Shown piece after piece: positions 35,520 through 62,802 of a stretch of DNA of 64,000 nt. Numbering within the stretch: position 1 is the first letter of the stretch; each line of letters begins with the position of its first letter. Source of the stretch: Alcaligenaceae bacterium (GTDB lineage Bacteria; Pseudomonadota; Gammaproteobacteria; Burkholderiales; Burkholderiaceae_B); the NCBI GenBank assembly GCA_013416405.1, contig JACCET010000003.1:310001-374000 (forward strand), in the 5' to 3' direction. Below the pieces are notes generated by a model. That model did no database searches and was not told the origin of the DNA. It saw nothing but the letters and a program-made list of their open reading frames with translations. The position numbers were made by a program, and so were the translations under genes.

Positions 35520-35668
35520 GGTGACGGTTCAATAACATAGGTCAGTCGCATATTCTAACGCGTGCAAGCGCAACGGGAATGAACTAATCTAAGATATTGA
35601 ACCGAGGCCAGGCACGCGCTTTGCTGCCTTGTCTGCTTGCTCGGCCTATCGAGATCAGGGGGTTTACC

Positions 35669-38086: not shown

Positions 38087-38095
38087 GGAAACTCC

Positions 38096-39292
38096 ATGAG
38101 CACTTTGCAACAAGCCTATATCGTCGCTGCCACGCGCAGCCCCATTGGCAAGGCGCCGCGCGGCATGTTTTCGCACACACGTCCCGACGACTTGCTGGCC
38201 ACCGTCATTCAGGGTCTGCTGGCGCAAACGCCGGGCCTGGACCCGGCCGCCATTGAAGACGCCATCGTTGGCTGCGCCATACCGGAAGGCCCGCAAGGCC
38301 TGAACGTAGGGCGCGTGGCTGCTTTGCTGTCGGGCTTGCCCACGTCGGTGGCGGGTGTAACCGTGAACCGTTTTTGCGCCTCGGGTCTTACGGCCATTGC
38401 CATGGCGGCCGACCGCATACGTGTGGGCGAGGCCGATGTCATCATCGCGGCCGGCACCGAGTCCATGAGCCTGGTGCCCACCATGGGCGTCAGCACCTCG
38501 TTCAGCCCCAACATCTTCACGCGCGACGAGAACTTGGGCATAGCCTATGGCATGGGCCTGACCGCCGAACAAGTGGCCACACAATGGAAGGTATCGCGCG
38601 AAGACCAGGACGCCTTCGCCCTGCAATCGCACCAGCGCGCGCTGGCGGCCCAGCAGGCCGGTGAATTCACCGACGAAATCCTGCCCATAGATGTCGTGCG
38701 GCGCACGCCCAACCTGCATACCGGCAAGGTCAACGAGCAGCACACCACCGTTGCGCTGGATGAAGGTCCGCGCGCCGATACCAGCCTGGAAGCGCTGGCC
38801 AGGCTGCGCCCCGCCTTTGCGGCGCGCGGCAGCGTGACCGCCGGCAACAGCTCGCAAATATCCGATGGCGCGGGCGCCTTGCTGGTGGTGTCCGAGCGTG
38901 CCCTGAAAACCCATAACCTGACGCCGCTGGCGCGTTTCGTGTCTTTTGCCGTGAAGGGTGTGCCGCCTGAAATCATGGGCATAGGTCCCAAGTTTGCCAT
39001 CCCGCATGTACTCAAGGTGGCTGGGCTGAAGCTGGATCAGATGGGCTGGATAGAGCTGAACGAAGCCTTTGCGGCCCAGTCGCTGGCCGTGATGCGCGAT
39101 GTGGGTCTGGATCCGGCCATCGTCAATCCGCTGGGCGGCGCCATTGCCCTGGGGCATCCACTGGGCGCCACCGGCGCCATACGCGCGGCCACTGTCATAC
39201 ACGGCATACGCCGACGCAAGCTGGATTACGGCATGCTGACCATGTGCGTGGGCACAGGCATGGGCGCTGCGGGGATCTTTGAGCGGGTGTAG
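38096..39292 (+). CDS. fadA: Acetyl-CoA acyltransferase (thiolase)
   Basis: Last step of beta-oxidation: thiolytic release of acetyl-CoA; 398 residues. The nucleophilic cysteine is in VNRFCASGLTAIAMAADRI; the C-terminal motifs are NPLGGAIALGHPLGATGA and GMLTMCVGTGMGAAGIFE with the second active cysteine. It forms an operon with the preceding bifunctional enzyme. A degradative rather than biosynthetic thiolase is inferred from this pairing. Confidence 0.94.
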   Translation: MSTLQQAYIVAATRSPIGKAPRGMFSHTRPDDLLATVIQGLLAQTPGLDPAAIEDAIVGCAIPEGPQGLNVGRVAALLSGLPTSVAGVTVNRFCASGLTAIAMAADRIRVGEADVIIAAGTESMSLVPTMGVSTSFSPNIFTRDENLGIAYGMGLTAEQVATQWKVSREDQDAFALQSHQRALAAQQAGEFTDEILPIDVVRRTPNLHTGKVNEQHTTVALDEGPRADTSLEALARLRPAFAARGSVTAGNSSQISDGAGALLVVSERALKTHNLTPLARFVSFAVKGVPPEIMGIGPKFAIPHVLKVAGLKLDQMGWIELNEAFAAQSLAVMRDVGLDPAIVNPLGGAIALGHPLGATGAIRAATVIHGIRRRKLDYGMLTMCVGTGMGAAGIFERV

Positions 39293-39325: not shown

Positions 39326-40207
39326 CTAGCGGCGCAGCCCGGTTTGATGTCGCCCAAACAATTCGCACACAGCCCGGGTAATGGGCTGTTTGCCGTGCTC
39401 TCGTCTTTCAAGCATGCCTACCCGGCGCACAATTGGCGGGCCGGGTAGCTGCTTGATCGCGAGTTGCTGGCTGGACCATTCGGCATTTGAAAGCTGGGGC
39501 ACGATGGCCACGCCATAATGCTGGCGTACCAATTGGGCGATGGCTTCAATGGAGTTCAGTTCTAGCGCGATGACAGGCGTCACGCCCAGTTGCTCGAGCG
39601 CATGGTCAATCAGCCGGCCTGTCCAGAGCGAACGGTCAAACTGCAAGAAGGGTTCGTGCTGCAGAAGATCCATGACCGGTCTGCGTGCCAAGTCTTGCGC
39701 CACGATCAAGACCAGCCGCTCCTGGTACAGGGGCGTCCACATCAGGCCCTGCGTGACGGTCTGCGGCGGTTCGGCGACCACGGCGGCGTCCAGCTCACCC
39801 TTGGTCACCATGCCGGCGAATTGTGCTGACTGCCCCGCGAGCAGCCGTACATCAAGATCGGGGTATTCGCGTTTGATGTCGGCCAGTGCACTGCCAAACG
39901 AGCCCATCAGGGCCGACACCAGGGCGCCCATATGCAAGGTGCCCCGCAGGGCGCCATCGGGCTGCAACAGCAGGCTGTCGTAGTCGGCGACCAGTTTTTC
40001 CAGGCGATCCAGCAACTGGCGCCCATCGGGCGTAACGGTGAAAGTCTGGGCGCCGCGCTCAAATAGACGCACATTGAGCTCAGATTCCAGGTTTTTTATT
40101 TGCAGGCTGACAGCGGCTTGGGTCAGGCCGATTTGACGGCCGACCTCGGCAAAGCTACCCAGCCTGGCTGCCGCGAGGGCAGTCCGGAACTGTCGAATGG
40201 AAGACAT
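39326..40207 (-). CDS. LysR-family transcriptional regulator
   Basis: Full-length LysR regulator, 293 residues. HTH: FRTALAAARLGSFAEVGRQ then IGLTQAAVSLQIKNLE and VRLFERGAQTFTVTPDG. The effector domain follows to the end. It diverges from the seven-gene frd-like/fumarase operon with 131 bases between starts, so it most probably controls that operon. An inverted repeat TTTGCT-N19-AGCAAA (40212-40242) lies right before its start. The effector is unknown. Confidence 0.92.
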   Translation of the reverse strand: MSSIRQFRTALAAARLGSFAEVGRQIGLTQAAVSLQIKNLESELNVRLFERGAQTFTVTPDGRQLLDRLEKLVADYDSLLLQPDGALRGTLHMGALVSALMGSFGSALADIKREYPDLDVRLLAGQSAQFAGMVTKGELDAAVVAEPPQTVTQGLMWTPLYQERLVLIVAQDLARRPVMDLLQHEPFLQFDRSLWTGRLIDHALEQLGVTPVIALELNSIEAIAQLVRQHYGVAIVPQLSNAEWSSQQLAIKQLPGPPIVRRVGMLERREHGKQPITRAVCELFGRHQTGLRR

Positions 40208-40338: not shown

Positions 40339-41082
40339 ATGTCGGAATCTACAACTTTGCGCGTCGAGGTTTGGCGGGGCGGCGAACAAGGAAAGTACGA
40401 GACTTTCCAGGTACCGCGCCGCGCCAACCAAACGGTGCTCGATATCGTCACGCATATCCAGCATCACCAAGACTCAACGCTGTCCTATCGCTTTGCCTGT
40501 CGTGTCGGTATGTGCGGTTCCTGTGCCATGCAGGTCAACGGGGTGGCGCGCTGGACGTGCCGCACGCATGTATCCAAGGTCTGTACCGACGGGCGCCTGC
40601 AACTGGCGCCCTTGTCCAATCTGCCTATCGTGAAAGATCTGGTCGTTAACATGGATCCTTTCTTTGAAAAGATGCAGGCGGCGCACGGCCGTTTTGTGGG
40701 CGAGCGTACCCGGCACGATCCGGTTGCGCCGGTCAAGCCCGATAGCCCTGAACGCCAAGAGGCCGAGGCCGGCATTGAATGCATAGGCTGTGGGGTATGC
40801 TATTCGTCCTGCGATGTAGTCAGCTGGCGACCCGACTATCTGGGGCCGGCCGCCTTGAACCGTGCCTGGACACTGGTCAATGACCTGCGCGATATCGATT
40901 TTCTGCGTTTGTCGGCCGTGGCGGGCGATGCGGGCTGTCATTCCTGCCATACCCAGGGCTCCTGTACGCAGCACTGTCCCAAGCAAATATCACCCACGGG
41001 CAGCATCGCGGGCTTGAAGCGCACGACGGCGCGTGCCGCCATGCGGGGCGAGCTTGGCGCCGAGACCACAAGGAGGCGCTAA
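40339..41082 (+). CDS. Fumarate reductase/succinate dehydrogenase-like iron-sulfur subunit
   Basis: Electron-transfer subunit of 247 residues from the ATG at 40339 (MSESTTLRVEVWRGGEQGK). It has three clusters: [2Fe-2S] ligands in CRVGMCGSCAMQVNGVARWTC-type sequence (CRVGMCGSC plus a later Cys), [4Fe-4S] in CIGCGVCYSSCDVV and a third in CHSCHTQGSCTQHCPKQ. The middle cluster followed by LGPAALNRAW resembles FrdB of fumarate reductases. First gene of a seven-gene operon; its TAA shares a base with the next ATG. The flavoprotein partner is five genes downstream. Confidence 0.9.
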   Translation: MSESTTLRVEVWRGGEQGKYETFQVPRRANQTVLDIVTHIQHHQDSTLSYRFACRVGMCGSCAMQVNGVARWTCRTHVSKVCTDGRLQLAPLSNLPIVKDLVVNMDPFFEKMQAAHGRFVGERTRHDPVAPVKPDSPERQEAEAGIECIGCGVCYSSCDVVSWRPDYLGPAALNRAWTLVNDLRDIDFLRLSAVAGDAGCHSCHTQGSCTQHCPKQISPTGSIAGLKRTTARAAMRGELGAETTRRR

Positions 41083-41438
41083 TGGCCGGTATCAACGCCC
41101 AAGGCGCCCGCCGTTGGTACTGGCAGCGCATCACGGCCATGGCGATGGCCCTGTTTGTCACCATCCATCTTGTGGTCATGATCTATGCCATCAACGGTGG
41201 TCTGAGTGCGGCTGAAGTGCTTGCGCGCACTCGCGGCAATATGTTGTGGGGACTGTTCTACACCGCGTTCGTCGGCCTGGTGGCGGTGCATGCTTCCATA
41301 GGTATACGCAATGTGCTGGTCGAATGGGCCGGCCTGCGCGACGCCGCCGCAGCTTGGGTATCGCGGCTGTTGGCGCTGATCCTGCTTGTCATGGGTTTGC
41401 GGGCGGTCTGGGCGGTCACCATAGGGGGTGGAGCGTGA
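41082..41438 (+). CDS. Membrane anchor subunit, SdhD-like
   Basis: A 118-residue protein with three hydrophobic helices. WYWQRITAMAMALFVTIHLV recalls the QRxTA motif of SdhD, and VGLVAVHASIGIRNVLVEW carries a probable haem-ligand histidine and the conserved RxxxxE. A perfect AGGAGG (41071-41076) serves the ATG, which overlaps the previous stop (TAATG). Forms the quinone-reactive membrane part with the next gene product. Confidence 0.82.
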   Translation: MAGINAQGARRWYWQRITAMAMALFVTIHLVVMIYAINGGLSAAEVLARTRGNMLWGLFYTAFVGLVAVHASIGIRNVLVEWAGLRDAAAAWVSRLLALILLVMGLRAVWAVTIGGGA

Positions 41439-41788
41439 AGAAAAATGATTTTCGGGCTCGCAAGCATGCCAGCTGGCTGGCGTTTGGCGTGCATCGGCTG
41501 TCCGGCGTCTTGCTGACTGTCTTTCTACCCTTCCATTTCTGGACACTGGGCCTGGCACTGGAAGGCGAGGCCGCGCTGAATACCGCCCTAAGTTGGTACG
41601 AGGCTCCCGTCTTCAAGGTGGGCGAATGGCTGCTGGTGTTTTTGCTGGCGGTGCATGCGCTGGGAGGCCTACGCCTATTGCTGATTGAGTTCAAGCCGTG
41701 GCGCAGCCTGCGCTTGGGCTGGATATCGGCCAGCCTGGGTACCGCTGCGGCGGTTTCTGTTGTCTTTCTTATTGCATCACTGAGCTGA
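41435..41788 (+). CDS. Cytochrome b subunit, SdhC-like (GTG start)
   Basis: A 117-residue membrane protein with three hydrophobic helices. It starts at a GTG at 41435 that overlaps the previous TGA (GTGA). Near its N-terminus is VHRLSGVLLTVFLPFHFWTL, matching the HRxxG haem/quinone motif of SdhC; a second histidine is in VHALGGLRLLLIEF. Together with the SdhD-like protein it would bind haem b and quinone, so electrons from the flavoprotein would enter the quinone pool. Three bases separate it from the fumarase alpha gene. Confidence 0.82.
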   Translation: MKKNDFRARKHASWLAFGVHRLSGVLLTVFLPFHFWTLGLALEGEAALNTALSWYEAPVFKVGEWLLVFLLAVHALGGLRLLLIEFKPWRSLRLGWISASLGTAAAVSVVFLIASLS

Positions 41789-41791
41789 ATC

Positions 41792-42670
41792 ATGAACCAA
41801 ATCGATTACACACAAGTGGAAGAAGCCGCCCGTGAGCTATATATCCGGGCGCTCAAAATATTACCTGACGACATCAAGGATGGCTTCACGCAACTGCAGG
41901 ACATGGAAACGTCTGAACGGGCCCGCGGGATACTGGGAACGATGGTGACCAATATTCGTGTGGCTGAAGACAACCAAAACCTGTTATGCCAAGATACGGG
42001 CATTCCCATTTACAACGTTCATATAGGCCGGAATGTGGCCGTCGATGGCTGGCGCCTCAAGCAGGCCATTGCCAAAGGCTGCGAACGTGCTACGCGTGAG
42101 CACCCTTTGCGCTCCAGCGTGGTGCATCCGATCAGTCGAAAAAATAACCACACCTCCTGTGGGCCCGGTGTGCCGGTGATTCATATCGATTTCGTCGAAG
42201 ATCCCGACAGGTTCGAGATTCAGATGATCCCCAAAGGCAGCGGCTCCGAAAACAACTCCTTCCTGCGCATGGCCATACCGGCCGAGGGTTTGGCGGCAGT
42301 CAAGCGCTTTGTCATAGACTGCGTGATCAATGCGGGTGGCAAGACCTGTCCGCCCACTATTGTGGGTGTAGGGGTGGGCGGCACATCGGACTTGTGTGTG
42401 CATTTGGCCAAGAAGGCCGCCACGCGTCCACTGGGCTCTGTCTGCGACGATCCGCTGGGCGCTGAACTTGAACGCGAGTTGTCGCAGGCCGTTAATCAGT
42501 TGGGCGTAGGGCCGCAAGGGCTGGGGGGTGACGCCACGGCCTTTGCCGTTCATGTAGAGCTGGCGGCGACCCACATCACCATGAACCCGGTGGCCGTCAA
42601 CATGCAGTGTCATTCGGCCCGGCGGGCGCTTGCCAGCCTGAGCGCCAACGGCATCGAATACGGTTTCTAA
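41792..42670 (+). CDS. Class I fumarase-type hydratase, alpha subunit
   Basis: Iron-sulfur hydro-lyase alpha subunit, 292 residues (TtdA/FumA N-terminal family). Typical segments: LLCQDTGIPIYNVHIG, the catalytic-loop region PKGSGSENNSFLRM, CPPTIVGVGVGGTSDLC and LGGDATAFAVHVELAATHI. Three cysteines suitable for a [4Fe-4S] cluster are present (in CQDTG, TCPPT and NMQCHS). Relatives hydrate fumarate, mesaconate or dehydrate tartrate. It lies inside a respiratory-complex operon, between the SdhC-like and flavoprotein genes, so its substrate should be the product of that complex. Confidence 0.9.
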   Translation: MNQIDYTQVEEAARELYIRALKILPDDIKDGFTQLQDMETSERARGILGTMVTNIRVAEDNQNLLCQDTGIPIYNVHIGRNVAVDGWRLKQAIAKGCERATREHPLRSSVVHPISRKNNHTSCGPGVPVIHIDFVEDPDRFEIQMIPKGSGSENNSFLRMAIPAEGLAAVKRFVIDCVINAGGKTCPPTIVGVGVGGTSDLCVHLAKKAATRPLGSVCDDPLGAELERELSQAVNQLGVGPQGLGGDATAFAVHVELAATHITMNPVAVNMQCHSARRALASLSANGIEYGF

Positions 42671-42680
42671 GGGGAACATC

Positions 42681-43289
42681 ATGGCTCATTACGACTTGCC
42701 TATGCCCATCACCGAAGATCAGGTTCGCACCTTGCGTGTCGGCGATACGGTCACACTGCAAAAAACCTTGTTCGGCATCCGAGACGCAACTTATATCGCC
42801 ATGTTCGATCAGGGACGCAAGACCCGCTTCGATTTGAACGGCCATGCCGTTATTCACACGGCGCCCAATGTGCGCAAGGTAGAGGTGTCTGAAGAATTCC
42901 CGGCAGGCTATCAATCGGTTTGTATCGGTACCACGACATCGTCGCGCATGGAGCGCTTCACGGAGCAACTGATAGAGCAGTGTGGCGTGCGCATCATTAT
43001 CGGCAAAGGCGGCATGCACGAGGGTTCCAAGCAGGCCTTTAAAGATCTTGGGGGGGTGTACCTGGGCATCGTGGGCGGCACCGCGGCGTTGGAAACCACC
43101 TGGATAGAACAAATCGAAGATGTGGATATGGACGACCTGAACCCCGAATCGCTCTGGAAATTCCGAATCCGCGATTTCGGTCCTTTGCTGGTCGCCATGG
43201 ACAGCCATGGCAATTCGCTATATGACGATGTCAGCGATGAGGTTCAACGCCGGCGCGATGCCGTGCTGGCGTCGTTGGGGGCCAACTGA
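42681..43289 (+). CDS. Class I fumarase-type hydratase, beta subunit
   Basis: Beta subunit of 202 residues (TtdB/FumA C-terminal family). It shows VGDTVTLQKTLFGIRDATYI, then the substrate-binding TTTSSRMERFTEQLI and IIIGKGGMHEG, with GVYLGIVGGTAAL. The separate alpha and beta chains match the two-subunit fumarase/tartrate dehydratase form. Its TGA shares a base with the ATG of the flavoprotein gene (TGATG), so the hydratase and the dehydrogenase are translationally linked. Confidence 0.9.
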   Translation: MAHYDLPMPITEDQVRTLRVGDTVTLQKTLFGIRDATYIAMFDQGRKTRFDLNGHAVIHTAPNVRKVEVSEEFPAGYQSVCIGTTTSSRMERFTEQLIEQCGVRIIIGKGGMHEGSKQAFKDLGGVYLGIVGGTAALETTWIEQIEDVDMDDLNPESLWKFRIRDFGPLLVAMDSHGNSLYDDVSDEVQRRRDAVLASLGAN

Positions 43290-45022
43290 TGGAAGCCTTT
43301 GACGTCGTTACCACTGATATTCTGATCCTGGGCTCGGGTGGCGCCGGGCTTTTTGCCGCCCTGCATGCGCACGATGCCGATCCTTCGCTGGACATTACCG
43401 TTGCGGTCAAAGGTCTGCTGGGCAAATGTGGCTGCACGCGCATGGTGCAAGGCGGCTATAACGTCGCACTGGCCGAAGGCGATTCACCCGAGCGCCACTT
43501 CATGGACACCATTACAGGTGGCAAATGGCTGCCTGACCAGGAGCTGGCCTGGAAGCTGGTCAATACCGCAGTCGAACGTATCCACGAGCTGGAAAATGAA
43601 CTGGGTTGCTTCTTCGATCGCAATGCGGATGGTTCGCTGCATCAAAAAGCTTTTGCGGGCCAAACCTTTGACCGCACCGTGCACAAGGGCGATCTGACCG
43701 GCATCGAGATCATCAATCGTTTGGCTGAACAAGTTTGGGCACGCAAGATCAAACGGCTCGAAGAGCACCGCGCCATCGAGCTGATCGCATCGTCAGACGG
43801 CCAGGGTATTGCTGGCGTCATGATGATAGACCTGCGTACCGGCAAGTACCGGCTGGTGCGCGCCAAGGCGGTCTTGCTGGCAACAGGCGGCGGCCCGACC
43901 ATGTATAAATTCCACACCCCTTCGGGTGATAAAAGCTGCGATGGCCTGGCCATGGCGCTAAGGGCGGGCCTGGGCCTGCGCGACATGGAAATGGTGCAGT
44001 TCCATCCCACCGGGCTACTGGCCGGAACCGATACCCGCATGACGGGTACCGTACTGGAAGAAGGCTTGCGCGGCGCCGGCGGCTACTTGTTGAATGGTGA
44101 CCATGAACGCTTTATGCATAATGTTGATCCGCGCGGTGAGCGGGCCACGCGCGATGTCGTGTCGCGTGGCATTTTTGCGGAAATGCGTGCTGGTCGTGTC
44201 AGTCCCAATGGTGGTGTCTATATACAAATGAACCACTTGGGGCCAGACGCCGTACGCAAGCAATTCAAAGGCATGGTCGAGCGTTGCGCAGATTGTGGTT
44301 TTGACTTGGCGGGTGGCCTGGTCGAAGTGGTTCCCACCGCGCATTACATGATGGGTGGTGTCATGTTCAAGCCAGACTGCAGCACCGAATGGTCGGGCCT
44401 GTTTGCCGCAGGCGAAGACACCGGTGGCGTGCATGGCGCCAATCGCCTGGGTGGCAATGGTGTGGCCAATTCCACGGTGTTTGGCGGTGTTGCCGGCGAT
44501 ACCATGGCGCAATGGGTGCAAGGACGCGTTCTGTTGGATTACAACCGCGAACAGGCGCAGCAGGCAATAGCGATGGCTGATAGACCCTTTGGGCAGCCGC
44601 CGGGTGATTTATACGCACTACGAGAACGACTGGCCGAATGCATGTGGAATGACGCCGGGATTGTGCGTGACAAGGCCGGCCTTGAGCGTGTCGCCGCTCA
44701 GCTCGAGGCCTTGCACCAAGAGTTGCTGACCGTTGGGGTGGCAGACGAGAATCGTGCCTACAACCTGACCTGGCATGATTGGCTCAACCTGGACAGTCTG
44801 CTGCATGTCAGCCAGGCCATCGTGTATGCGGCGCTGGCGCGTGAAGACTCGCGTGGGGCTCATTTTCGCGACGATTACCCTGATGTGCACGATCTTGAAA
44901 ATTCGTGGTTCTCAATCGTTCGACAGCAAGCGGGCGAGCTGAAACTAGAGCGACGGCCTGTCGTCTTTACCCGGGTTGCGCCCGGTCAAACCATACTGTC
45001 GGAAGAAGAGGCTAGTACATGA
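43289..45022 (+). CDS. Succinate dehydrogenase/fumarate reductase-like flavoprotein without the covalent-FAD histidine
   Basis: Catalytic flavoprotein of 577 residues. FAD motif ILILGSGGAGLFAALHA; substrate residues of the family are kept: His in QFHPTGLLAG, Glu in VLEEGLRGAGGYL, Arg in RATRDVVSRGI, His in PTAHYMMGGVMF and Arg in GANRLGGNG. This implies a succinate-like substrate with two acidic groups. The residue that carries FAD covalently in SdhA/FrdA (His in SHT-x-A-x-GG) is Cys49 here (CGCTRMVQGG), so FAD is probably not covalently bound as usual. The unusual gene order places fumarase between it and its iron-sulfur partner. Confidence 0.88.
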   Translation: MEAFDVVTTDILILGSGGAGLFAALHAHDADPSLDITVAVKGLLGKCGCTRMVQGGYNVALAEGDSPERHFMDTITGGKWLPDQELAWKLVNTAVERIHELENELGCFFDRNADGSLHQKAFAGQTFDRTVHKGDLTGIEIINRLAEQVWARKIKRLEEHRAIELIASSDGQGIAGVMMIDLRTGKYRLVRAKAVLLATGGGPTMYKFHTPSGDKSCDGLAMALRAGLGLRDMEMVQFHPTGLLAGTDTRMTGTVLEEGLRGAGGYLLNGDHERFMHNVDPRGERATRDVVSRGIFAEMRAGRVSPNGGVYIQMNHLGPDAVRKQFKGMVERCADCGFDLAGGLVEVVPTAHYMMGGVMFKPDCSTEWSGLFAAGEDTGGVHGANRLGGNGVANSTVFGGVAGDTMAQWVQGRVLLDYNREQAQQAIAMADRPFGQPPGDLYALRERLAECMWNDAGIVRDKAGLERVAAQLEALHQELLTVGVADENRAYNLTWHDWLNLDSLLHVSQAIVYAALAREDSRGAHFRDDYPDVHDLENSWFSIVRQQAGELKLERRPVVFTRVAPGQTILSEEEAST

Positions 45023-46650
45023 GCGAAGCAAGCCCGCGAGGCGCCACTATGCTGGTTCGATCCATCAAGCAGGCCGGCGTGAAAACCGTTATCTCCTTGT
45101 CGGGCAACCACATCATGCCGGTATACGACGCCTTGTTCGACGAAAAACTGCGCATCGTACATACGCGTCATGAAGCAGCGACGGTGCATATGGCCGATGC
45201 CTGGGCGCGGTTGACCGCGACCGTTGGCGTGGCACTGGTCACCGGCGGCCCGGGTCATGCCAATGCCGTGTCCGCGTTGTATACCGCTTATATGTCCGAG
45301 TCGCCCGTCGTCTTGCTGTCGGGCCATGCGCCCTTGTCGCAATTGGGTGCGGGCGCCTTTCAGGAAATGGATCAGGTCGCCATGGCGCGGCCGGTCGTCA
45401 AGGCGGCTTGGGCTGCCGACAACCCGGACACCATTGCCGCTGATTTTGCCAAGGCCTGCCGGATAGCGCAGGAAGGGCGGCCTGGGCCGGTACACCTGAG
45501 CTTGCCGACTGACATTCTCGAAGGTCTTGCCCAGCATATCGAGCTGCCCGCCACGGGCGATTATGCGCCCCAAGCCATGCCGCTCGATGGCGCGATCGCC
45601 ACGAGTCTGCTGGCCCGTCTGCGCCAGGCCAAGCGGCCGATGGTTCTTGTCGGGCCGCAAGGCCTGACGGATGCCGGACGTGCGGCCGTGGCGCGTCTGC
45701 AGCAGGCTTGCGGCCTGCCCGTGGTCGCCACGGAAAGCCCGCGCGGCAGCAACGACCCAAGCCTGGGAGCGTTTGCGCCTTTGCTGAGCCAGGCCGATTG
45801 CGTATTGCTGATTGGCAAAAGATTGGACTTTACCCTGGGGTTTGGGCGTGCGCCTGTCTTTTCGCCAGATTGCGTCTTCCTGCAGGTTGACGCGGATGAC
45901 GACGAGCTCAAGCGCAGCGACCGAGCCGTAGGCGACCGGCTGCAAGCCAGGCACGAGGCCGACGCGCACTCCGCGTTGGCGGCACTGGCCGCAGCGGGGG
46001 GTGCGAACCCATTGCATGAACAATGGTTGGCGCAAGTAGGGCAGGCGCTGGCTTATCGGCCGCCTGCCTGGCAGCAGCCGTCGTCTCCCGAAGGCACTTT
46101 GCATCCCGCCCAGATCTTTGCTTCGGTACAGAAGGTACTCGACAGCCATTCCGATGCCGTGCTGGTGGTCGATGGCGGTGAAATCGGCCAATGGGCGCAA
46201 GCCTGCCTGACGGCGCCGCACCGTGTGATCAATGGGGCGGCCGGCGCCATTGGCGCCGCATTGCCCATGGCAATCGGGGCGCAGTTGGCCTATCCAGATG
46301 CGCCCGTTGTTGCCGTCATGGGCGATGGCACTTTTGGCTTTCATTGCGCCGAACTCGACACCGCCTTGCGTTGCGATGCGCCGATACTTTGTGTGGTGGG
46401 CAACGATGCACGCTGGAATGCAGAATATCAAATACAGCTGCGCAGCTATGGCTCGGACCGTACGATAGGCTGCGAACTGCTGCCATCGCGTTATGAACGT
46501 GTGTGCACGGCGTTTGGCGGCCATGGTGAGTACGTCGACGAGGCGGCGGAACTTCCTGCCGCATTGCAGCGGGCGCGAACCTCGGGCTTGCCAGCCTGCG
46601 TCAACGTCAGCCTTGACGGCTTGCCTGCACCCGTCATACGTCAGGGGTAA
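45019..46650 (+). CDS. Thiamine diphosphate-dependent enzyme of the acetolactate synthase family
   Basis: A 543-residue ThDP enzyme with the three-domain layout of the IlvB/decarboxylase family. The cofactor-activating glutamate is Glu52 in HTRHEAATVHMADAW. The Mg/ThDP motif is MGDGTFGFHCAELDTA with the downstream ND of VVGNDARWNAEYQ. The Glu excludes glyoxylate carboligase. Its start overlaps the flavoprotein stop (ATGA), so it belongs to the same operon. The substrate is unknown; a 2-oxo acid formed from the hydratase product, for example an oxaloacetate analogue, is the simplest idea. It ends at the left arm of a 103-base inverted repeat. Confidence 0.82.
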   Translation: MSEASPRGATMLVRSIKQAGVKTVISLSGNHIMPVYDALFDEKLRIVHTRHEAATVHMADAWARLTATVGVALVTGGPGHANAVSALYTAYMSESPVVLLSGHAPLSQLGAGAFQEMDQVAMARPVVKAAWAADNPDTIAADFAKACRIAQEGRPGPVHLSLPTDILEGLAQHIELPATGDYAPQAMPLDGAIATSLLARLRQAKRPMVLVGPQGLTDAGRAAVARLQQACGLPVVATESPRGSNDPSLGAFAPLLSQADCVLLIGKRLDFTLGFGRAPVFSPDCVFLQVDADDDELKRSDRAVGDRLQARHEADAHSALAALAAAGGANPLHEQWLAQVGQALAYRPPAWQQPSSPEGTLHPAQIFASVQKVLDSHSDAVLVVDGGEIGQWAQACLTAPHRVINGAAGAIGAALPMAIGAQLAYPDAPVVAVMGDGTFGFHCAELDTALRCDAPILCVVGNDARWNAEYQIQLRSYGSDRTIGCELLPSRYERVCTAFGGHGEYVDEAAELPAALQRARTSGLPACVNVSLDGLPAPVIRQG

Positions 46651-46752
46651 TTCCGTTTCTAAATCTATCGTGAACGCGAAGGCAAAGCGCAGACATTACT
46701 AGCGTAAGGCAAGCGCAGCCGACAAAGTGCACGATAGATTTAGAAATGGAAT
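46650..46752. repeat. 103-bp MITE-like element with 23-bp terminal inverted repeats
   Basis: Arms 46650-46672 and 46730-46752 are reverse complements at 22 of 23 positions (shared core TTTCTAAATCTATCGTG). The left arm starts inside the stop codon of the ThDP enzyme gene and the right arm ends 13 bases before the permease start. The 57-base interior contains a degenerate direct repeat (GCGaAGGCAAAGCGCAG, then GCGtAAGGCAAGCGCAG). No coding frame is inside. It could be a miniature transposable element or a long transcript hairpin. Confidence 0.7.
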
Positions 46753-46765
46753 AAGCGACCGAATA

Positions 46766-47518
46766 ATGGAAATCTGGATTTTTGTTGTCATAGGCAGTGT
46801 GCTGGCCGCCTTTGTCCAGGGTCTGGCCGGCTTTGGTTTCGGCATGGTGTCGCTGGCGGTCTGGTCCTGGGTCATGGAGCCGGCCCTGGCGGTGCCCCTG
46901 GTTGTTTTTGGGTCTTTGCTGGGGCAGTTGCTGGCGGTTGGTGCTTTGCGCCAAGGCTTCAATTGGCAGCGGCTACAGCCCTTTTTAATTGGCGGCATCG
47001 TGGGGATACCCACCGGCTTGTGGCTACTGAAAATCCTGGATCCCTTGTTTTTCAAGTTTGGCGTGGGTGTGCTGCTGGCGGTGTACTGCAGCGCCATGCT
47101 GTTGCTGGCTCGCATTCCCCGTGTGAAACACGGCGGCCGCAAGGCCGATGGCCTGATAGGCTGGGTGGGCGGAACCATGAGTGGCTTTGGCGGCCTGCCG
47201 GGCGCCATTCCTACCCTGTGGTGCACCTTGCGTGGCTGGCCCAAAGACCAGCAGCGCAATGTATTTCAAGCTTTCAACCTGTTCATGCACATCCTGACCA
47301 TGCTAGCGTTTACCGCCAATGGCATGATTACGTCTGAGGTGCTTGGGCTTTTTGCCTTGGTAGGGCCGGTCATGCTGATCCCTTCTATCGTAGGCATACG
47401 CCTGTACCGCCGTTTTTCAGACAGCTCATTCAAGATGGTGGTACTGGGTTTGCTTACCATTTCGGGCGTCATGCTGCTGGTGTCAACCGCCCCGAAAGTA
47501 TGGGCGCTACTCACTTAA
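46766..47518 (+). CDS. TauE/SafE-family permease (probable sulfite/sulfonate exporter)
   Basis: Inner-membrane protein of 250 residues with about eight hydrophobic helices and the duplicated TauE/SafE pattern: VQGLAGFGFGMVSLAVW near the start and GWVGGTMSGFGGLPGAI in the second half. The ATG at 46766 is chosen because the in-frame upstream ATG lies within the inverted repeat. In sulfonate catabolic clusters such proteins export sulfite released by desulfonation, and suyAB is two genes away. It may be read from the upstream operon or from its own promoter. A 15-bp hairpin follows. Confidence 0.85.
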   Translation: MEIWIFVVIGSVLAAFVQGLAGFGFGMVSLAVWSWVMEPALAVPLVVFGSLLGQLLAVGALRQGFNWQRLQPFLIGGIVGIPTGLWLLKILDPLFFKFGVGVLLAVYCSAMLLLARIPRVKHGGRKADGLIGWVGGTMSGFGGLPGAIPTLWCTLRGWPKDQQRNVFQAFNLFMHILTMLAFTANGMITSEVLGLFALVGPVMLIPSIVGIRLYRRFSDSSFKMVVLGLLTISGVMLLVSTAPKVWALLT

Positions 47519-47568: not shown

Positions 47569-48573
47569 TCAGCCGCCGCTGCTGATGGTGATGTTGCGTT
47601 CTTTGATGACTTTCGCCCACCTATCGGATTCTTCTTTGATGTTGTTGGCAAACTCTTCGGAAGAGTTTCCAACCGCTTGCATGCCCAATGACGACAGTTT
47701 TTCTTTCACGTCTTTCATGGCCAGCACCTTGACCGTGTCTTGCTGAATCTTGCGTACGATATCGTTGGGGGTGCCTTTGGGTACAACGAAACCGAACCAG
47801 CCGTAGTTTTCAAAACCCGGCACGCCGGCTTCCGATACCGTTGGAACATCCGGCAGCATCGCCGCCCTGTCTTTGCTGGTGACTGCCAGTACGTTGATCA
47901 TGCCGCTTTGGATGTGCGGTGTTGCCGCGCCTATGTTGCCCACCATCAGATCAATCTGGCCGGCCAACAGGTCGCTAAGGCCTGCTGCTTCGCCACGATA
48001 GGGCACGTGGGTAAACTCGACTTTTGCGGCGTACGAGAAGTTCTCGCCCGCCATGTGAACCTGGCTGCCCATGCCTGCTGAGCCCATATTGAGCTTTTTG
48101 GGGTTCTTCTTGGCCATGTCCAGAAGCTCTTGCAATGTCTTGACCTTAACCTTCTTGGCGGTTACCACGACCATAGGGCCTTGGGCTATGTTCGTAACGG
48201 GAAGAAAATCGTTGTCGACGTCGAAAGGCAGGGAAGCATACAGATGCGGATTGACCGTCAGGATACTGCCAGAGGCCAACAAGATGGTGTAGCCGTCGGG
48301 CTTGGACTGGGCCACAGCGGCGCTGCCAATATTGCCGCCTGCGCCCAGCTTATTCTCGATAACAACACTTTGGCCCCACATTTGCCCCAGCTTGTTTGCA
48401 ATCAGGCGTCCGACGACGTCGGTGGTGCCGCCGGCGGAAAAGGGCACAACGACGGTTACCGCTCTGTCAGGCCAGTCTGCAGCACAGACAGGGGCGGAAA
48501 AAAGCCCGGCCGTTAAGGCCGAGGCTGCAAATAAAAGGCTAAGACGCCGCTTGGGAATGAATCGATCGTGCAT
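47569..48573 (-). CDS. TctC/Bug-family periplasmic binding protein
   Basis: Extracytoplasmic solute receptor of the tripartite tricarboxylate type, 334 residues. A signal peptide ends near AADWPDRAVTVVVPFSAGG, the latter being the family start, with TDVVGRLIANKLGQMW following. Other marks are LGAGGNIGSAAVAQSKPDGY and MINVLAVTSKDRAAMLPDVP. No TctA/TctB permease genes are in the window, as is common for the many Bug proteins of Alcaligenaceae. It follows suyB by 219 bases on the same strand, so sulfolactate or a related sulfonate is a reasonable ligand guess, comparable to SlcH of TTT-type sulfolactate uptake. Confidence 0.9.
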   Translation of the reverse strand: MHDRFIPKRRLSLLFAASALTAGLFSAPVCAADWPDRAVTVVVPFSAGGTTDVVGRLIANKLGQMWGQSVVIENKLGAGGNIGSAAVAQSKPDGYTILLASGSILTVNPHLYASLPFDVDNDFLPVTNIAQGPMVVVTAKKVKVKTLQELLDMAKKNPKKLNMGSAGMGSQVHMAGENFSYAAKVEFTHVPYRGEAAGLSDLLAGQIDLMVGNIGAATPHIQSGMINVLAVTSKDRAAMLPDVPTVSEAGVPGFENYGWFGFVVPKGTPNDIVRKIQQDTVKVLAMKDVKEKLSSLGMQAVGNSSEEFANNIKEESDRWAKVIKERNITISSGG

Positions 48574-48792: not shown

Positions 48793-49968
48793 TTACGCAC
48801 TTTCAAACAAGCGTGTCAGCACGAATTCGCGATGACCCAGTGCTTCGGCCGAGGTCCAGCGGCCATTGGCGGTAGCCAGCATGCTTTCCAGCAGTTTGTC
48901 GCCAGCTTGGTCCAAATCGATTTCGCGCTGCAGCAGGCCGCTGGTGTCGACGTCGACGTGTTCCGACATGGTGCGCACCGTACGCGGGTTGGCGCAAATC
49001 TTGATCACGGGCAAGATGGGATTGCCAATGACGTTGCCTTGTCCGGTGGGAAAGAAGTGCACGGCAAAGCCCGATGCGGCGCATAGCGTGACCATTTCGG
49101 CGGCGGCCGACGATGAGTCCATGAACCACAGACCTTTGTGGGTGGGCGTCTCGGCTTTATCGAGCACTCCGTCTACGGTGCATTTCTTGCCGATTTTCTG
49201 AATATTGCCCATCGCTTTTTCTTCGATGGTGGTCAGGCCGCCCGCGATATTGCCCTTGGTGGGCTGTGATTCAGACAAGTCGCTGGTCTTCCAGCGGTTG
49301 ATCATGTCTTGGTAGCGGTTGAACATGAACATGAAGCGCTCGCGCACTTCATCGTTGGCACAACGCTCGGCAACAATATGCTCGCCGCCGGTGATTTCCG
49401 AGGTCTCGCCAAACACCAGCGTGCTGCCTAGTTCATACAGTTTGTCGAAGGCATTGCCCACGGTGGGGTTGGAGCCACAGCCCGAGGTGGTGTCGGACTC
49501 GCCGCATTTGGTGGACACCCACAAGTCGCTGATCGGGCATTCTTCGCGGTTCAGACCGGTAGCGTAATGCACGTATTCCTTGGCCTTGGCAGAGGCGCGC
49601 ATGATGGTGCTGTGGTCGCCGTTTAGTTCGATGCTGAAGCCAGCTACGGGTTTGCCCGTGGCGGCAATGCCGTCGACCACACGCTTGGTCCAGCCTTCTT
49701 CAATGCCGATCACAATGACAGCGGCCACGTTTGGATTGCTGCCGGTGCCTATCAGTGTGCGGAAATGTAATTCCAGATCTTCACCGAACTGCAGGCGGCC
49801 GTAAGGGTGTGGTATGGCCAGCGTGCCCTTGATGTTGTTGGCGACGGCCTCGGCGGCCGCGTTCGAGATATCGTCTACAGTCAGAACGATGACATGATTG
49901 CGTACGCCCACGCGACCGTTGTCGCGGCGGTATCCCATGAAGGTGGTGTTGGCGGAAATAACAGCCAT
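48793..49968 (-). CDS. suyB: (2R)-sulfolactate sulfo-lyase, large subunit
   Basis: Large subunit of the lyase that splits (R)-3-sulfolactate into pyruvate and sulfite; 391 residues of the UxaA/altronate-dehydratase superfamily. Marks: [57 protein letters not shown] and [20 protein letters not shown] with cysteines suited to an Fe-S cluster. The same superfamily has altronate and galactarate dehydratases. SuyB is preferred because of the small partner gene suyA and the slcC-comC pair nearby. It lies 43 bases after suyA. Confidence 0.86.
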
Positions 49969-50011
49969 GGTTGATGCTCCTTTTCTTAAGCTTTAAATAG
50001 TGCGTTCGGGA

Positions 50012-50293
50012 TTACCAGCGCTTGGTCTTGATGTTCTGGACGTGGGCGTGGTCGCCTGCCTTGATGGGGGCCACCACCTTGCCGATATCGACGCCATACT
50101 TGAAGATGGTGTCGCCCGGATTCATGTCTTGCAGGGCCACTTTGTGACCTATGGGGATATCTTGTTGTGCTTTGACGTGGATCATTTTGTCTTCGTCCAT
50201 AATCCAGGCGGTCATTTCGGTACCGGCGGTTATGCCTTCGACCACGGCTACTGCCACCGTGTCCTTGGCGTCGTGCAATACGGCATGAATCAT
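50012..50293 (-). CDS. suyA: (2R)-sulfolactate sulfo-lyase, small subunit
   Basis: Small SAF-domain subunit of 93 residues, starting at the ATG at 50293 (MIHAVLHDAKDTVAVAVVEG) with AGAGGA in front. An upstream in-frame ATG is not credible because it lies beyond the promoter. The ending GVDIGKVVAPIKAGDHAHVQ then NIKTKRW is typical of SuyA and of UxaA N-terminal domains. It is the first gene after a strong promoter and precedes suyB. Confidence 0.87.
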   Translation of the reverse strand: MIHAVLHDAKDTVAVAVVEGITAGTEMTAWIMDEDKMIHVKAQQDIPIGHKVALQDMNPGDTIFKYGVDIGKVVAPIKAGDHAHVQNIKTKRW

Positions 50294-50352
50294 TTTCGTC
50301 CTCTCTTTCCAAAAAATCGGCAGGCCATGCTGCCTAGTATTAGTCCTGGAAA

Positions 50353-50381
50353 ATACTAGCCCCATAAAACATACATGTCAA
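50353..50381 (-). promoter_or_regulatory. suyA promoter (perfect TTGACA, TAGTAT)
   Basis: On the minus strand TTGACA (50381-50376) is 17 bases from TAGTAT (50358-50353), giving a start near 50346 and a leader of about 50 bases. One base upstream of the -35 is the operator shared with slcC. The -10 also lies in the right arm of an inverted repeat CTAGTATT-N10-AATACTAG (50334-50359). Confidence 0.8.
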
Positions 50382-50513: not shown

Positions 50514-51266
50514 ATGACTTCAACCTTGTCGCAACTCAGTCCCTCGGGAATCCCGCTGTATCAGCAAGTCAAACGGGCGGTACTGGCGGCGCTCGCCTCT
50601 GGCGAGTGGGTGCAGGGCGAAGCCATTCCACCCGAAAAACTGCTGGCCGAGCGCTTCAGCGTGTCTATAGGCACCTTGCGCAAGGCGATTGACGAGCTCG
50701 AAGCCGAAAACATTCTGGTTCGCCATCAAGGGCGTGGCACTTTTGTCGCCATACACTCGCGCAATCAGCATTTTTTTCGGTTTTTCCGTGTGGTCCGCCA
50801 AGACGGAAAAAAAGCCTATCCTGAAACCGAGTTGCAACGCTTCAGACGGGTGCGTGCCAACGAAGAAGTCCGCGCAAAACTCGCCTTGGGCAAAGGCGCT
50901 TTTGTGTACGAGTTCGTTAATCTGCTCAGCCTGAATGGCGACAAGGTCATTGTCGATACCATCGCCGTGCCCGAAGTGCTTTTTCGCGACCTGACACGCG
51001 AGCAGTTGCGCGACCGGCCCAGCACGCTATACAGTTTTTATCAGGAAATGTTCGGCATCAACGTCATCAGCACATCGGAAACGGTGCGCGCCACGCTGGC
51101 CGATGCAGAGCATGCCGGCTGGTTGGGCGTCGCGCCAGGCGCGCCTTTGCTGAGCGTGCGTCGGGTGGCGTATTCGTATAACAAACTGCCCATAGAATGG
51201 CGTATTTCAACGCTGCACACCGGGCGCTACGAATATATCAGTCAGGATACGAGCGGCGGGTCTTGA
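50514..51266 (+). CDS. GntR-family regulator with UTRA domain (SuyR-like)
   Basis: Regulator of 250 residues. The winged HTH is PLYQQVKRAVLAALASGEWV, then AIPPEKLLAERFSVSIGTLR and HQGRGTFVA; the C-terminal UTRA ligand domain runs from about residue 95 to the end. The ATG at 50514 is chosen because the HTH starts normally from there; the upstream frame is not conserved-looking. It stands between suyAB (divergent) and slcC-comC (same direction), and the shared operator lies in both control regions. The effector is probably sulfolactate or sulfopyruvate (inference). Confidence 0.88.
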   Translation: MTSTLSQLSPSGIPLYQQVKRAVLAALASGEWVQGEAIPPEKLLAERFSVSIGTLRKAIDELEAENILVRHQGRGTFVAIHSRNQHFFRFFRVVRQDGKKAYPETELQRFRRVRANEEVRAKLALGKGAFVYEFVNLLSLNGDKVIVDTIAVPEVLFRDLTREQLRDRPSTLYSFYQEMFGINVISTSETVRATLADAEHAGWLGVAPGAPLLSVRRVAYSYNKLPIEWRISTLHTGRYEYISQDTSGGS

Positions 51267-51374: not shown

Positions 51375-51399
51375 CGATGGCTTCTTCCAAGGGGGTGTC

Positions 51400-52350
51400 A
51401 TGAAGATCATCATTTCCGAGTTGATGGACGCGGCGGTCGTCGATCAGTTACGCGACCGTTTTGACGTCAGCTACGATGCCGGCCTGGTCGACCGGCCCGA
51501 TGACCTGCTTAAGGCTGTGGCGAATGCCGACGCCCTGATTGTGCGCAACCGCACCCAGGTCAATGCGCGGTTGTTGGCAGCGGCGCCCCAGCTTAAAGCG
51601 GTAGGCCGTCTGGGCGTTGGGCTGGACAACATCGATGTTGCCGCTTGCGAACAACGCGGCATTCAGGTGCTGCCGGCAACGGGCGCCAATGCACTGGCAG
51701 TGGCCGAATACGTGATCGCTTCAGCTATGTTGTTGCTGCGCGGCGCTTATTTTGCCTCGGCCGACGTTGCCAGCGGCGCCTGGCCCCGGAACCAGCTTTC
51801 CGATGGGCGTGAGACCAGCGGCAAGGCTTTGGGTCTGGTGGGTTTTGGGGGCATCGGGCAATTGACGGCATCATTGGCGGTCAAGCTGGGCATGACGGTA
51901 TACGCCTACGATCCAGCGCTGGCTGACGACGCGCCAATTTGGCGCGATACCGGTGTTCATCCTGTGCCACTAAACCGGCTGGTTTCCGAGGCCGACGTCA
52001 TCAGCCTGCACATCCCCCTGATGGACAGTACCAAAGGCCTGTTCGATGCTAATTTGATTGCACAAATGAGGCCGGGCGCCGTGCTTGTTAATACTTCGCG
52101 CGGAGGCATTGTCGATGAAGCTGCACTGGTGCAGGCACTACAGCAGGGCCGTATTGGCGGCGCCGCGCTGGATGTGTTCGAGAATGAACCGCTACCGGCG
52201 GGCAACGCCTTCCCATCGTTGCCCAATCTGTTGCTTACGCCCCATATTGCGGGGCTGACGGCTGAGTCCAATCAAAGGGTTAGCCAGCTGATTGCGCAAC
52301 GCGTAACCGACAGTCTGTCGGCGGCGTCGGCGGCGTCGGCGCGAGAGTAA
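51400..52350 (+). CDS. slcC: (S)-sulfolactate dehydrogenase (D-2-hydroxyacid dehydrogenase family)
   Basis: NAD-dependent 2-hydroxyacid dehydrogenase, 316 residues from the ATG at 51400. NAD motif GLVGFGGIGQLTASLAVKLG; catalytic Arg in VNTSRGGIVDE, Glu in DVFENEPLP and His in LLTPHIAGLT. The family also includes 3-phosphoglycerate dehydrogenase; SlcC is preferred from context (suyAB, comC, UTRA regulator). SlcC oxidises (S)-sulfolactate to sulfopyruvate, and ComC then reduces it to the (R) form that SuyAB cleaves, so the pair acts as a racemase. Starts from an operator-linked promoter. Confidence 0.85.
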   Translation: MKIIISELMDAAVVDQLRDRFDVSYDAGLVDRPDDLLKAVANADALIVRNRTQVNARLLAAAPQLKAVGRLGVGLDNIDVAACEQRGIQVLPATGANALAVAEYVIASAMLLLRGAYFASADVASGAWPRNQLSDGRETSGKALGLVGFGGIGQLTASLAVKLGMTVYAYDPALADDAPIWRDTGVHPVPLNRLVSEADVISLHIPLMDSTKGLFDANLIAQMRPGAVLVNTSRGGIVDEAALVQALQQGRIGGAALDVFENEPLPAGNAFPSLPNLLLTPHIAGLTAESNQRVSQLIAQRVTDSLSAASAASARE

Positions 52351-52360
52351 AGGAAGGGTC

Positions 52361-53353
52361 ATGACGGTTCATTCGATAGACGCATTGATAGACCAGGCCA
52401 GCGGTGCCTTGCTGCGAGCTGGCGCCAGCCAGACCATGGCCCGCAGTACGGCAAAGTCGCTGGTCATGGCCGAGGCGCAGGGCTTGGGTTCGCATGGCTT
52501 GTCACGCGTCAGCCAATATGCTTCGCACTTGCGCAGCGGACGGGTCAACGGTCAGGCGCAGGCGAGCATAGTCAAATCGCACGGGGCAGGCTTGCTGGTC
52601 GATGCCGACGAGGGTCTGGCCTTTCCGGCCTGTGAGCTGGCCATTACCGAGGCCATCGATCGTGCACGCCAGTTCACCGTGGCCTTTGCCGGCGTGACGC
52701 GCAGCCATCACTTCGGCATGGCAGGCCTGCATCTTGAAAGTGTGGCCGAACAAGGCATGGTCGGCTTTGCGTTCAGCAACTCTCCAGCCGCCATGCCGGC
52801 ATGGGGCGGCGGCCAGGCCTTGTTTGGCACCAACCCCATTGCCGCCGTTTTTCCGCGCAGCAATGGTGATCCCATTGTCATCGATCTGTCGTTGTCGGAA
52901 GTGGCGCGTGGCAAACTCATGGTGGCTGCCCGCGAGGGCCGCAGCATACCTGAAGGCTGGGCGCTCGATAAAAACGGGCAGCCCACCACTGATCCACAAG
53001 CCGGACTGGACGGCATGATGTGTCCAGCGGGTGGCGTCAAGGGCGCCATGCTGGCCCTGATGGTCGAATTGCTTTGCGTGGCCCTGACGGGCGCGTCTTT
53101 TGGCTACGAGGCCGATTCCTTCTTCAGCGCCGACGGCAACCGGCCGCATATCGGCCACGTTTTCCTGGTCATTGATCCGTCGGCGCTGGCGGGCCGCGAT
53201 GTGTATTTCGACAGGGTAGATACCCTGGTGGCGGCCATGATCAGTGACGAAAACGTACGCTTGCCCGGCAGCCGACGTTCCGCCTTGGTGCAACGCAGCC
53301 TGGAACAAGGCATAGAAGTGCCTGATGGCATGTGGGCGCAGTTGCAGGCCTAG
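52361..53353 (+). CDS. comC: (2R)-3-sulfolactate dehydrogenase, ComC type
   Basis: Dehydrogenase of the malate/L-sulfolactate (Ldh2) family, 330 residues. Marks: AEAQGLGSHGLSRVSQYASH, the SHHFGMAGLH motif with the catalytic His, FGTNPIAAVFPR and the late GGVKGAMLALMVELL. It follows slcC by ten bases with an AGGAAGG site. With SlcC it would interconvert sulfolactate isomers through sulfopyruvate using NAD(P)H. It converges on pgi with a 12-base gap and no visible terminator. Confidence 0.85.
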   Translation: MTVHSIDALIDQASGALLRAGASQTMARSTAKSLVMAEAQGLGSHGLSRVSQYASHLRSGRVNGQAQASIVKSHGAGLLVDADEGLAFPACELAITEAIDRARQFTVAFAGVTRSHHFGMAGLHLESVAEQGMVGFAFSNSPAAMPAWGGGQALFGTNPIAAVFPRSNGDPIVIDLSLSEVARGKLMVAAREGRSIPEGWALDKNGQPTTDPQAGLDGMMCPAGGVKGAMLALMVELLCVALTGASFGYEADSFFSADGNRPHIGHVFLVIDPSALAGRDVYFDRVDTLVAAMISDENVRLPGSRRSALVQRSLEQGIEVPDGMWAQLQA

Positions 53354-59766: not shown

Positions 59767-59822
59767 CAGTCATGAGCACGCAAGGAAGTGGGCGGTGGCC
59801 TATTGTAGCGACTCTGTCGCGC

Positions 59823-62794: not shown

Positions 62795-62802
62795 CCGCTT
62801 AG

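Follow-up and report, generated by a model that had tools for sequence, protein, structure and literature searches.

We analysed a 64,000-nucleotide stretch of an Alcaligenaceae bacterium genome (assembly GCA_013416405.1, contig JACCET010000003.1, positions 310,001 to 374,000), here called the window, and in it a seven-gene array at 40339-46650 in which the genes of a fumarase-type hydratase lie among those for the subunits of a dehydrogenase related to respiratory complex II. Sulfonate genes lie directly downstream of this operon, outside the coordinates of a preliminary description made from the sequence alone. Judged from its genes, the cluster probably forms a catabolic route for 3-sulfopropionate that comprises the complex II-like enzyme, the fumarase-type hydratase and the sulfo-lyase SuyAB. 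3-Sulfopropionate is succinate with one carboxylate swapped for a sulfonate, and an isostere of it. The four-subunit membrane-bound complex II-like enzyme (40339-41788 and 43289-45022) would oxidise 3-sulfopropionate to 3-sulfoacrylate and deliver the electrons to quinone; the interleaved iron-sulfur (Fe-S) hydratase (41792-43289) would then add water to 3-sulfoacrylate and, if it follows the stereochemistry of fumarase, yield (R)-sulfolactate, the equivalent of L-malate, which we deduce to bear this name because sulfur alters the naming priority. SuyAB (48793-50365), highly identical to a known pair, would split (R)-sulfolactate into pyruvate and sulfite. SlcC and ComC, assigned at the family level, may interconvert (S)- and (R)-sulfolactate via sulfopyruvate, and sulfite would leave the cell, perhaps through TauE. 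All catalytic genes of the cluster except that of a thiamine diphosphate (ThDP) enzyme gain a place in this route. The preliminary description had the dehydrogenase and the hydratase working one after the other on a single substrate; the present analysis favours that idea, with a dedicated operon and a substrate that is probably not succinate.

The array consists of seven tightly packed open reading frames (ORFs), identified through Pfam and NCBIfam searches, in the order Fe-S subunit, SdhD-like, SdhC-like, hydratase alpha, hydratase beta, flavoprotein and ThDP enzyme. The successive junctions are overlaps of 1 and 4 bases, gaps of 3 and 10, and again overlaps of 1 and 4; the SdhC-like gene has a GTG start at 41435 and overlaps the sdhD stop. 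Both the order and the junctions had been given in the preliminary description, and the ORF map and the family searches agree with them. The hydratase alpha subunit matches chain A of a solved structure (PDB 7xky_A, E 2e-69). A scan for regulatory signals returned 8 promoter-like sites against 6.2 expected, and 34 terminator-like sites against 14.9 expected.

The Fe-S subunit has 13 cysteines, among them those at positions 54, 59, 62, 74, 148, 151, 154, 158, 203, 209 and 213, which, from the roles of their counterparts in SdhB, we take to be the ligands of 2Fe-2S, 4Fe-4S and 3Fe-4S clusters. The flavoprotein matched 31 NCBIfam families and fell below the cut-off of each of the 25 shown; it scored 428.6 bits against 567.3 for TIGR01812 and 340.4 against 727.35 for TIGR01816, and its best match was the fumarate reductase TfrA (506 bits, cut-off 718). 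The catalytic His, Arg, His and Arg were present in 132 of 132 relatives, with matching motifs in the window. We presume these positions to be H232, R287, H355 and R390 of FrdA, with H44 as the histidine that binds flavin adenine dinucleotide (FAD) and T244 as the carboxylate-site threonine. The column of the covalent-FAD histidine was a gap in all 132 relatives, the stretch reading GCTRM in 133 of 133 sequences including the window's, and a HMMER alignment placed a cysteine at this position of the flavoprotein. At the substrate-carboxylate threonine position, glutamate was found in the window and in 132 of 132 relatives; this change fits an altered substrate, without saying which. In a quick tree, all 73 rows of the flavoprotein family were split from four SdhA/FrdA rows with full support.

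Downstream of the operon, the enzyme pair at 48793-50365 is, by its high identity to a known pair, SuyAB, a predicted (R)-sulfolactate sulfo-lyase; that enzyme was identified, according to passages of a review, in Cupriavidus pinatubonensis JMP134 (PMC12890257). SuyB was 84% identical over 391 amino acids, and SuyA 77% over 93, to an adjacent pair in C. pinatubonensis HN-2 (compared one way), in whose vicinity hpsN and hpsO are annotated. The pair is a two-part enzyme of the UxaA/GarD type. A galactarate or altronate dehydratase was considered for the protein at 48793-49968 and rejected. Its NCBIfam galactarate dehydratase match is far below the cut-off and C. pinatubonensis SuyB scores alike; the family models thus do not decide on this protein, and identity was used to name it. 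The SlcC-like enzyme takes its name from its context, beside the ComC-like and SuyAB genes. SlcC and ComC appear in passages of one paper as a two-enzyme sulfolactate racemase, together with SuyAB and TauE (PMC12421959), and SlcHFG in part of another as a tripartite tricarboxylate transporter (TTT) system for sulfolactate (PMC5812351).

The linkage of the dehydrogenase to these genes was followed in other genomes. Flavoprotein relatives (E up to 1e-120) were found in 39 of 300 genomes of the window's order, its own included, at 66-100% identity, and in 11 of 398 genomes of a phylum sample. A search of the same 300 genomes for SuyB gave 51 positives, 38 of them among the 39 flavoprotein-positive genomes and 13 among the 261 negative ones (Fisher p 8e-36, uncorrected for shared ancestry). 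SuyB lay within 15 kb of the flavoprotein in 29 of the 39 and farther away on the same contig in 2; in the remaining 8 it was on another contig or, in one genome (G211), not found.

Named relatives were taken from 15 plasmid records and from the best 80 of 581 candidates of a genome-contig scan. In all, 127 neighbourhoods were fetched (38 from the order, 9 from the phylum, 80 named) and their genes counted on tblastn maps; species may overlap between the genome samples and the named sample, and duplicates were kept. A fumarase-type hydratase was present in the same stretch as the flavoprotein in 125 of the 127, about 7 kb apart in three of these, and the two neighbourhoods without it (L073 and L176) are cut off by the edge of a contig. 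Two arrangements were seen. In type A (36 neighbourhoods) a window-like hydratase is interleaved, upstream of the flavoprotein gene; in type B (89 neighbourhoods) a different class I hydratase lies downstream of that gene, its alpha subunit being 30% identical to the window's in the one pair compared. The preliminary description had proposed looking for its gene order in other genomes, and among the order loci the hydratase was indeed upstream of the flavoprotein in 35 of 38; a different hydratase was downstream in 2, and 1 was cut by a contig end. SuyB was within the fetched stretch at 25 of these 38 loci, 35 of which are type A. In the quick tree, type B was set apart by a weakly supported branch (13). 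Relatives of the TTT solute-binding protein occurred near the flavoprotein at 33 of the 38 order loci, and GntR relatives beside suyAB at many loci. TauE relatives reached the threshold at 49 of 80 named loci but at only 3 of the 38 from the order, and TauE thus regularly accompanies type B rather than type A. The corresponding counts for LysR relatives were 55 of 80 and only 4 of 38.

On a plasmid of Methylobacterium radiotolerans (Alphaproteobacteria), all seven genes recur in unchanged order. Beyond them, with intervening transporter genes, come TauE, suyA, suyB, an NAD(P)-dependent oxidoreductase, an enzyme of the Ldh family and GntR. On a plasmid of Rhodococcus jostii RHA1 (Actinomycetota), a flavoprotein 54% identical to the window's is accompanied by fumA- and fumB-like genes, suyAB, and SlcC- and ComC-like genes, SuyB (61%; SuyA 32%) being about 19 kb from the flavoprotein. 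In this locus, two aldehyde-dehydrogenase-like frames, separated by another frame, lie between the two sulfonate regions (L105:18610-21434), and the gene may be broken. Type B operons also had neighbours of sulfonate or sulfite metabolism. That of Paracoccus versutus is separated from suyAB by about 20 kb, in which lie a gene annotated hisD and a short-chain dehydrogenase/reductase gene; that of Pseudorhizobium NT-26 is near a sulfolactaldehyde 3-reductase-like enzyme (324.3 bits, just below the cut-off of 348) and a succinate-semialdehyde dehydrogenase-family enzyme above its subfamily cut-off; and that of Methylobacterium nodulans is near SorA and SoxC sulfite dehydrogenases, both above their cut-offs.

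A further link comes from Roseovarius nubinhibens ISM. According to parts of a published article (PMC11489063), the breakdown of 3-sulfopropionate by bacteria had until then gone unreported, save in a Konstanz thesis on this strain, which has homotaurine converted to 3-sulfopropionate, then sulfoacrylate and then sulfolactate; the same article reports 3-sulfopropionate as an electron acceptor that Bilophila wadsworthia is able to use. R. nubinhibens ISM (L137) has a type B dehydrogenase-hydratase operon of the flavoprotein family, into which TTT genes run, with TauE and LysR genes on the opposite strand.

Several observations weigh against assigning the cluster to 3-sulfopropionate. The link to R. 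nubinhibens depends on the dehydrogenase and not on the hydratase of the window, since the hydratase of type B is another one. The query of the contig scan was led by a roseobacter sequence chosen to reach R. nubinhibens, and at least ten other Roseovarius matched as well; the match is a prediction come true, yet, as far as known, one not specific to homotaurine users. SuyB was within the fetched stretch at just 2 of the 80 named loci (79 type B, one cut), so the dehydrogenase does not always have SuyAB as its partner; G211, moreover, has the flavoprotein and gave no SuyB match. The scarcity of TauE relatives at the order loci (3 of 38) counts here as well. No SlcC family was among the NCBIfam matches of the protein at 51397-52350, and the ComC-like protein scored 216.5 bits with NF040650, below the cut-off of 500. 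Finally, plasmid-borne spread between lineages could account for some of the shared linkage.

The place of the ThDP enzyme calls for separate treatment, since the preliminary description had it acting on the product of the two preceding activities. This found no support: the gene is optional, it has homologs beside unrelated genes and it does not track Xsc; the next enzyme on the hydratase product is likely SuyAB at 48793-50365. The ThDP gene was present in 15 of 38 order, 3 of 9 phylum and 19 of 80 named neighbourhoods, and its ortholog (E up to 1e-130) in 29 of the 300 order genomes, 28 of them flavoprotein-positive. Its nearest solved structures are 2-hydroxyacyl-CoA lyases, and it scored below every curated ThDP family cut-off shown (25 of 52 matched families), reaching 194.8 bits against 676.4 with the Xsc model TIGR03457; the Xsc of the window's genome lies elsewhere (1012.9 bits). 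Xsc was found in 16 of the 28 genomes with both the ThDP gene and the flavoprotein (one below the curated cut-off), in 6 of the 11 with the flavoprotein alone and in 13 of the 261 flavoprotein-negative genomes. By these counts, Xsc accompanies the operon and not the ThDP gene, and this co-occurrence test gave no support to a ThDP enzyme feeding Xsc. Nine neighbourhoods were fetched for ThDP genes, several of which proved to be in unrelated contexts; a sulfonate role for the whole ThDP family was rejected on the ground that homologs away from the cluster have such contexts. In four genomes (L195-L198), ThDP homologs stand beside biotin-synthesis-like genes, away from sulfonate genes.

One guess is that the ThDP enzyme might be a sulfopyruvate decarboxylase, in which case it could turn sulfopyruvate into sulfoacetaldehyde in a genome that has Xsc. 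A stronger version would make it the main route, from sulfolactate through sulfopyruvate and sulfoacetaldehyde to Xsc, with SuyAB secondary; its first two steps are those of the 3-sulfopropionate route. We consider this unlikely. The presence of Xsc in the window's genome, together with its higher frequency among flavoprotein-positive genomes (22 of 39) than among negative ones (13 of 261), speaks for it, as does a ThDP gene in L090 that overlaps a GlcD-like hydroxyacid oxidase gene (below the GlcD cut-off), but Xsc is as indifferent to the ThDP gene as the counts above indicate, the homologs outside the cluster adjoin apparent biotin genes or other unrelated genes, and the enzyme falls short of all the ThDP family cut-offs just mentioned.

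The neighbours of the type B hydratase suggest another fate for its product. The type B hydratase genes of Pseudomonas sp. MPC6 run into a gene for a CoA-acylating methylmalonate-semialdehyde dehydrogenase, above its cut-off; a sulfite oxidase gene lies about 5 kb beyond, and the annotation of the stretch has no suyAB. Relatives of the semialdehyde dehydrogenase were found near type B in Cupriavidus sp. P-10 (62%) and L091 (at least 50%); none of the 80 named loci had one at the 50% threshold. CoA-acylating (methyl)malonate-semialdehyde dehydrogenase relatives were noticed near type B at L107:17337-18827, L191:7612-9132 and L091, without suyAB in the fetched stretch. A sulfonate-oxidising complex II may have been joined to a fumarase-type hydratase at least twice, the window type adding water to the carbon beside the carboxylate and so making sulfolactate for SuyAB, and some type B hydratases desulfonating directly, a scenario that we regard as rather improbable. 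Such a hydratase would place water on the sulfonate-bearing carbon, giving a bisulfite adduct of malonate semialdehyde from which sulfite would be released.

A different substrate in the same sulfonate context is also improbable. Sulfosuccinate, for example, could pass through sulfofumarate and hydroxysulfosuccinate to oxaloacetate and sulfite, and on chemical grounds a substituted diacid has the merit of retaining both of the carboxylates that complex II and fumarase bind. However, the carboxylate-site threonine is changed throughout the flavoprotein family examined, the SuyAB of the cluster is 77-84% identical to a sulfolactate-pathway pair and adjoins a sulfolactate dehydrogenase homolog, and the R. 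nubinhibens pathway, as cited, names 3-sulfopropionate and sulfoacrylate.

Every domain of the operon other than the ThDP enzyme's is that of a complex II or a class I fumarase, and the array could accordingly be an alternative succinate dehydrogenase and fumarase for the tricarboxylic acid (TCA) cycle or for stress, next to sulfonate genes by accident. This we judge very improbable. The genome (3.66 Mb, 59 contigs) has three flavoproteins with PF02910, two of them, of the SdhA type and on contigs C22 and C55, besides the operon's own; it also has two class I fumarase loci, the one outside the operon being a single-frame gene on C59, and a class II FumC above its cut-off on C11. The operon is thus not the only such set in the genome; the preliminary description had said that being the only one would make it an ordinary TCA-cycle operon, and we reject that identity. 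An incidental neighbourhood also fits poorly with SuyB in 38 of 39 flavoprotein-positive genomes and a linkage that recurs in Methylobacterium and Rhodococcus, or with a flavoprotein that falls below the SdhA and FrdA cut-offs and has a changed substrate-site residue. Operation in the opposite direction, with sulfoacrylate serving as an electron sink and being reduced to 3-sulfopropionate, is hardly credible: the flavoprotein does have a fumarate reductase as its best match, but several relatives have exporters and sulfite dehydrogenases nearby, which suggests an oxidative catabolism that releases sulfite, and R. nubinhibens is reported, in the source cited above, to consume 3-sulfopropionate.

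The 3-sulfopropionate route would supply candidate genes for the missing aerobic steps of 3-sulfopropionate breakdown, in a flavoprotein family that is common in the samples searched (39 of 300 and 11 of 398 genomes), and, if true, would mean that a respiratory complex II-type enzyme has been recruited for a sulfonate. 3-Sulfopropionate is formed from homotaurine (PMC5320631, in part) and via gut sulfoglycolysis (PMC11489063); its formation from homotaurine, as 3-sulfopropanoate, is reported for Cupriavidus necator H16 according to the title of Mayer & Cook 2009, cited in PMC5320631. Passages of two reviews state that its degradation needs more study, above all in anaerobes (PMC9594981), and that the way in which Bilophila degrades it is unclear (PMC12890257). 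Judged by titles, abstract beginnings and term counts, with few subscription papers and preprints covered, none of the papers listed ties succinate dehydrogenase or fumarase genes to either 3-sulfopropionate or sulfoacrylate. Within this coverage, the gene assignment appears new; the pathway idea itself is that of the cited thesis.

Features of the operon and its surroundings in the window
Feature	Position	Strand	Basis or remark
LysR-type regulator	39326..40207	-	divergent from operon; possible regulator of it
Fe-S subunit, SdhB/FrdB-like	40339..41082	+	TIGR00384 182.7 bits, cut-off 88
SdhD-like membrane anchor	41082..41438	+	Sdh_cyt PF01127 31.8 bits, above 25.8; TIGR02968 33.2, below cut-off 41.8
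SdhC-like cytochrome b subunit	41435..41788	+	TIGR02970 57 bits, above cut-off 52.3
Class I (Fe-S) fumarase-type hydratase alpha; proposed sulfoacrylate hydratase	41792..42670	+	PRK06246 314.6 bits, above cut-off 276
Class I fumarase-type hydratase beta	42681..43289	+	TIGR00723 154.5, above cut-off 145.15; PDB 7xky_B match
Complex II-type flavoprotein; proposed 3-sulfopropionate dehydrogenase	43289..45022	+	PF00890, PF02910
ThDP enzyme of the acetolactate synthase / 2-hydroxyacyl-CoA lyase kind	45019..46650	+	profile and structure matches; role unsettled
TauE/SafE family exporter, possibly for sulfite	46727..47518	+	PF01925 104.8 bits, above 32.6; substrate presumed
TTT (Bug/TctC-type) solute-binding protein	47569..48573	-	33% identical relative in L102 annotated TTT substrate-binding
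SuyB, predicted (R)-sulfolactate sulfo-lyase large subunit	48793..49968	-	PF20629, PF04295; 84% identity to C. pinatubonensis protein
SuyA, small subunit	50012..50365	-	77% identity; start probably codon 25 of ORF
GntR-family regulator	50520..51266	+	true start not fixed (ORF from 50448)
SlcC-like D-2-hydroxyacid dehydrogenase	51397..52350	+	ORF opens 51355; phosphoglycerate dehydrogenase (PGDH) family 274.6 bits, below cut-off 454
ComC-like sulfolactate dehydrogenase, Ldh family	52361..53353	+	best NCBIfam match NF040650 (L-sulfolactate dehydrogenase)

Other genes recurred near the cluster. Eight type A neighbourhoods (L060:4667-6076, L041, L042, L043, L047, L049, L053 and L055) have, between their anchor genes and their TTT gene, a member of one gene family, which in the case tested is a sulfatase (PF00884); it might point to a sulfate-ester precursor. 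Histidinol-dehydrogenase-type (HpsN-like) genes near the flavoprotein cluster (L090:17061-18371, L050, L045, L093, L140, L143 and L155) hint that C3-sulfonate genes may share islands. In L091:13150-14013, L070, L072, L191 and L192:15676-16515, the last by annotation only, the type B hydratase genes are followed by one for an amidohydrolase, and on a plasmid of Sulfitobacter sp. THAF37 a gene annotated as 3-sulfinopropanoyl-CoA desulfinase is near a type B operon (L108:26415-27587). Elsewhere in the window, fadJ-like and thiolase genes resembling those of beta-oxidation occupy 35597-39292, just upstream of the divergent LysR gene, and frames judged by eye to be polysaccharide-like (O-antigen ligase-like, two glycosyltransferases, RmlB- and RmlD-like) lie at 58492-63690.

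Among known systems, the dehydrogenase resembles complex II in its four-subunit plan, its presumed three Fe-S clusters, its two anchors and its catalytic histidines and arginines; it differs in having a flavoprotein of a separate clade in the quick tree, which lacks the FAD-linking histidine and has Thr changed to Glu, and in having hydratase genes interposed among its subunit genes. The hydratase is like class I fumarases and L-tartrate dehydratases, exceeding the cut-offs of the NCBIfam models of fumarate hydratase alpha and of TtdB/FumA-C beta; what sets it apart is its linkage to sulfonate genes, and its alpha subunit is 31% identical to the other class I fumarase of the genome. The proposed route would be a step-for-step analogue of the end of the 4-aminobutyrate (GABA) shunt, from succinate semialdehyde through succinate and fumarate to malate, with a sulfonate replacing one carboxylate. 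Its back half is the same as the sulfolactate pathway of Chromohalobacter, Paracoccus and Cupriavidus, with SuyAB, SlcC/ComC and TauE, as passages of PMC12421959 set it out. The sulfolactate pathways found described obtain sulfolactate from outside, from dihydroxypropanesulfonate or from sulfolactaldehyde, whereas the cluster would make it from 3-sulfopropionate by dehydrogenation and hydration. The homotaurine route cited for R. nubinhibens ISM has the same chemistry as that proposed here, and this strain has an orthologous dehydrogenase; unlike in the window, its hydratase is of the other type and is encoded after the flavoprotein gene.

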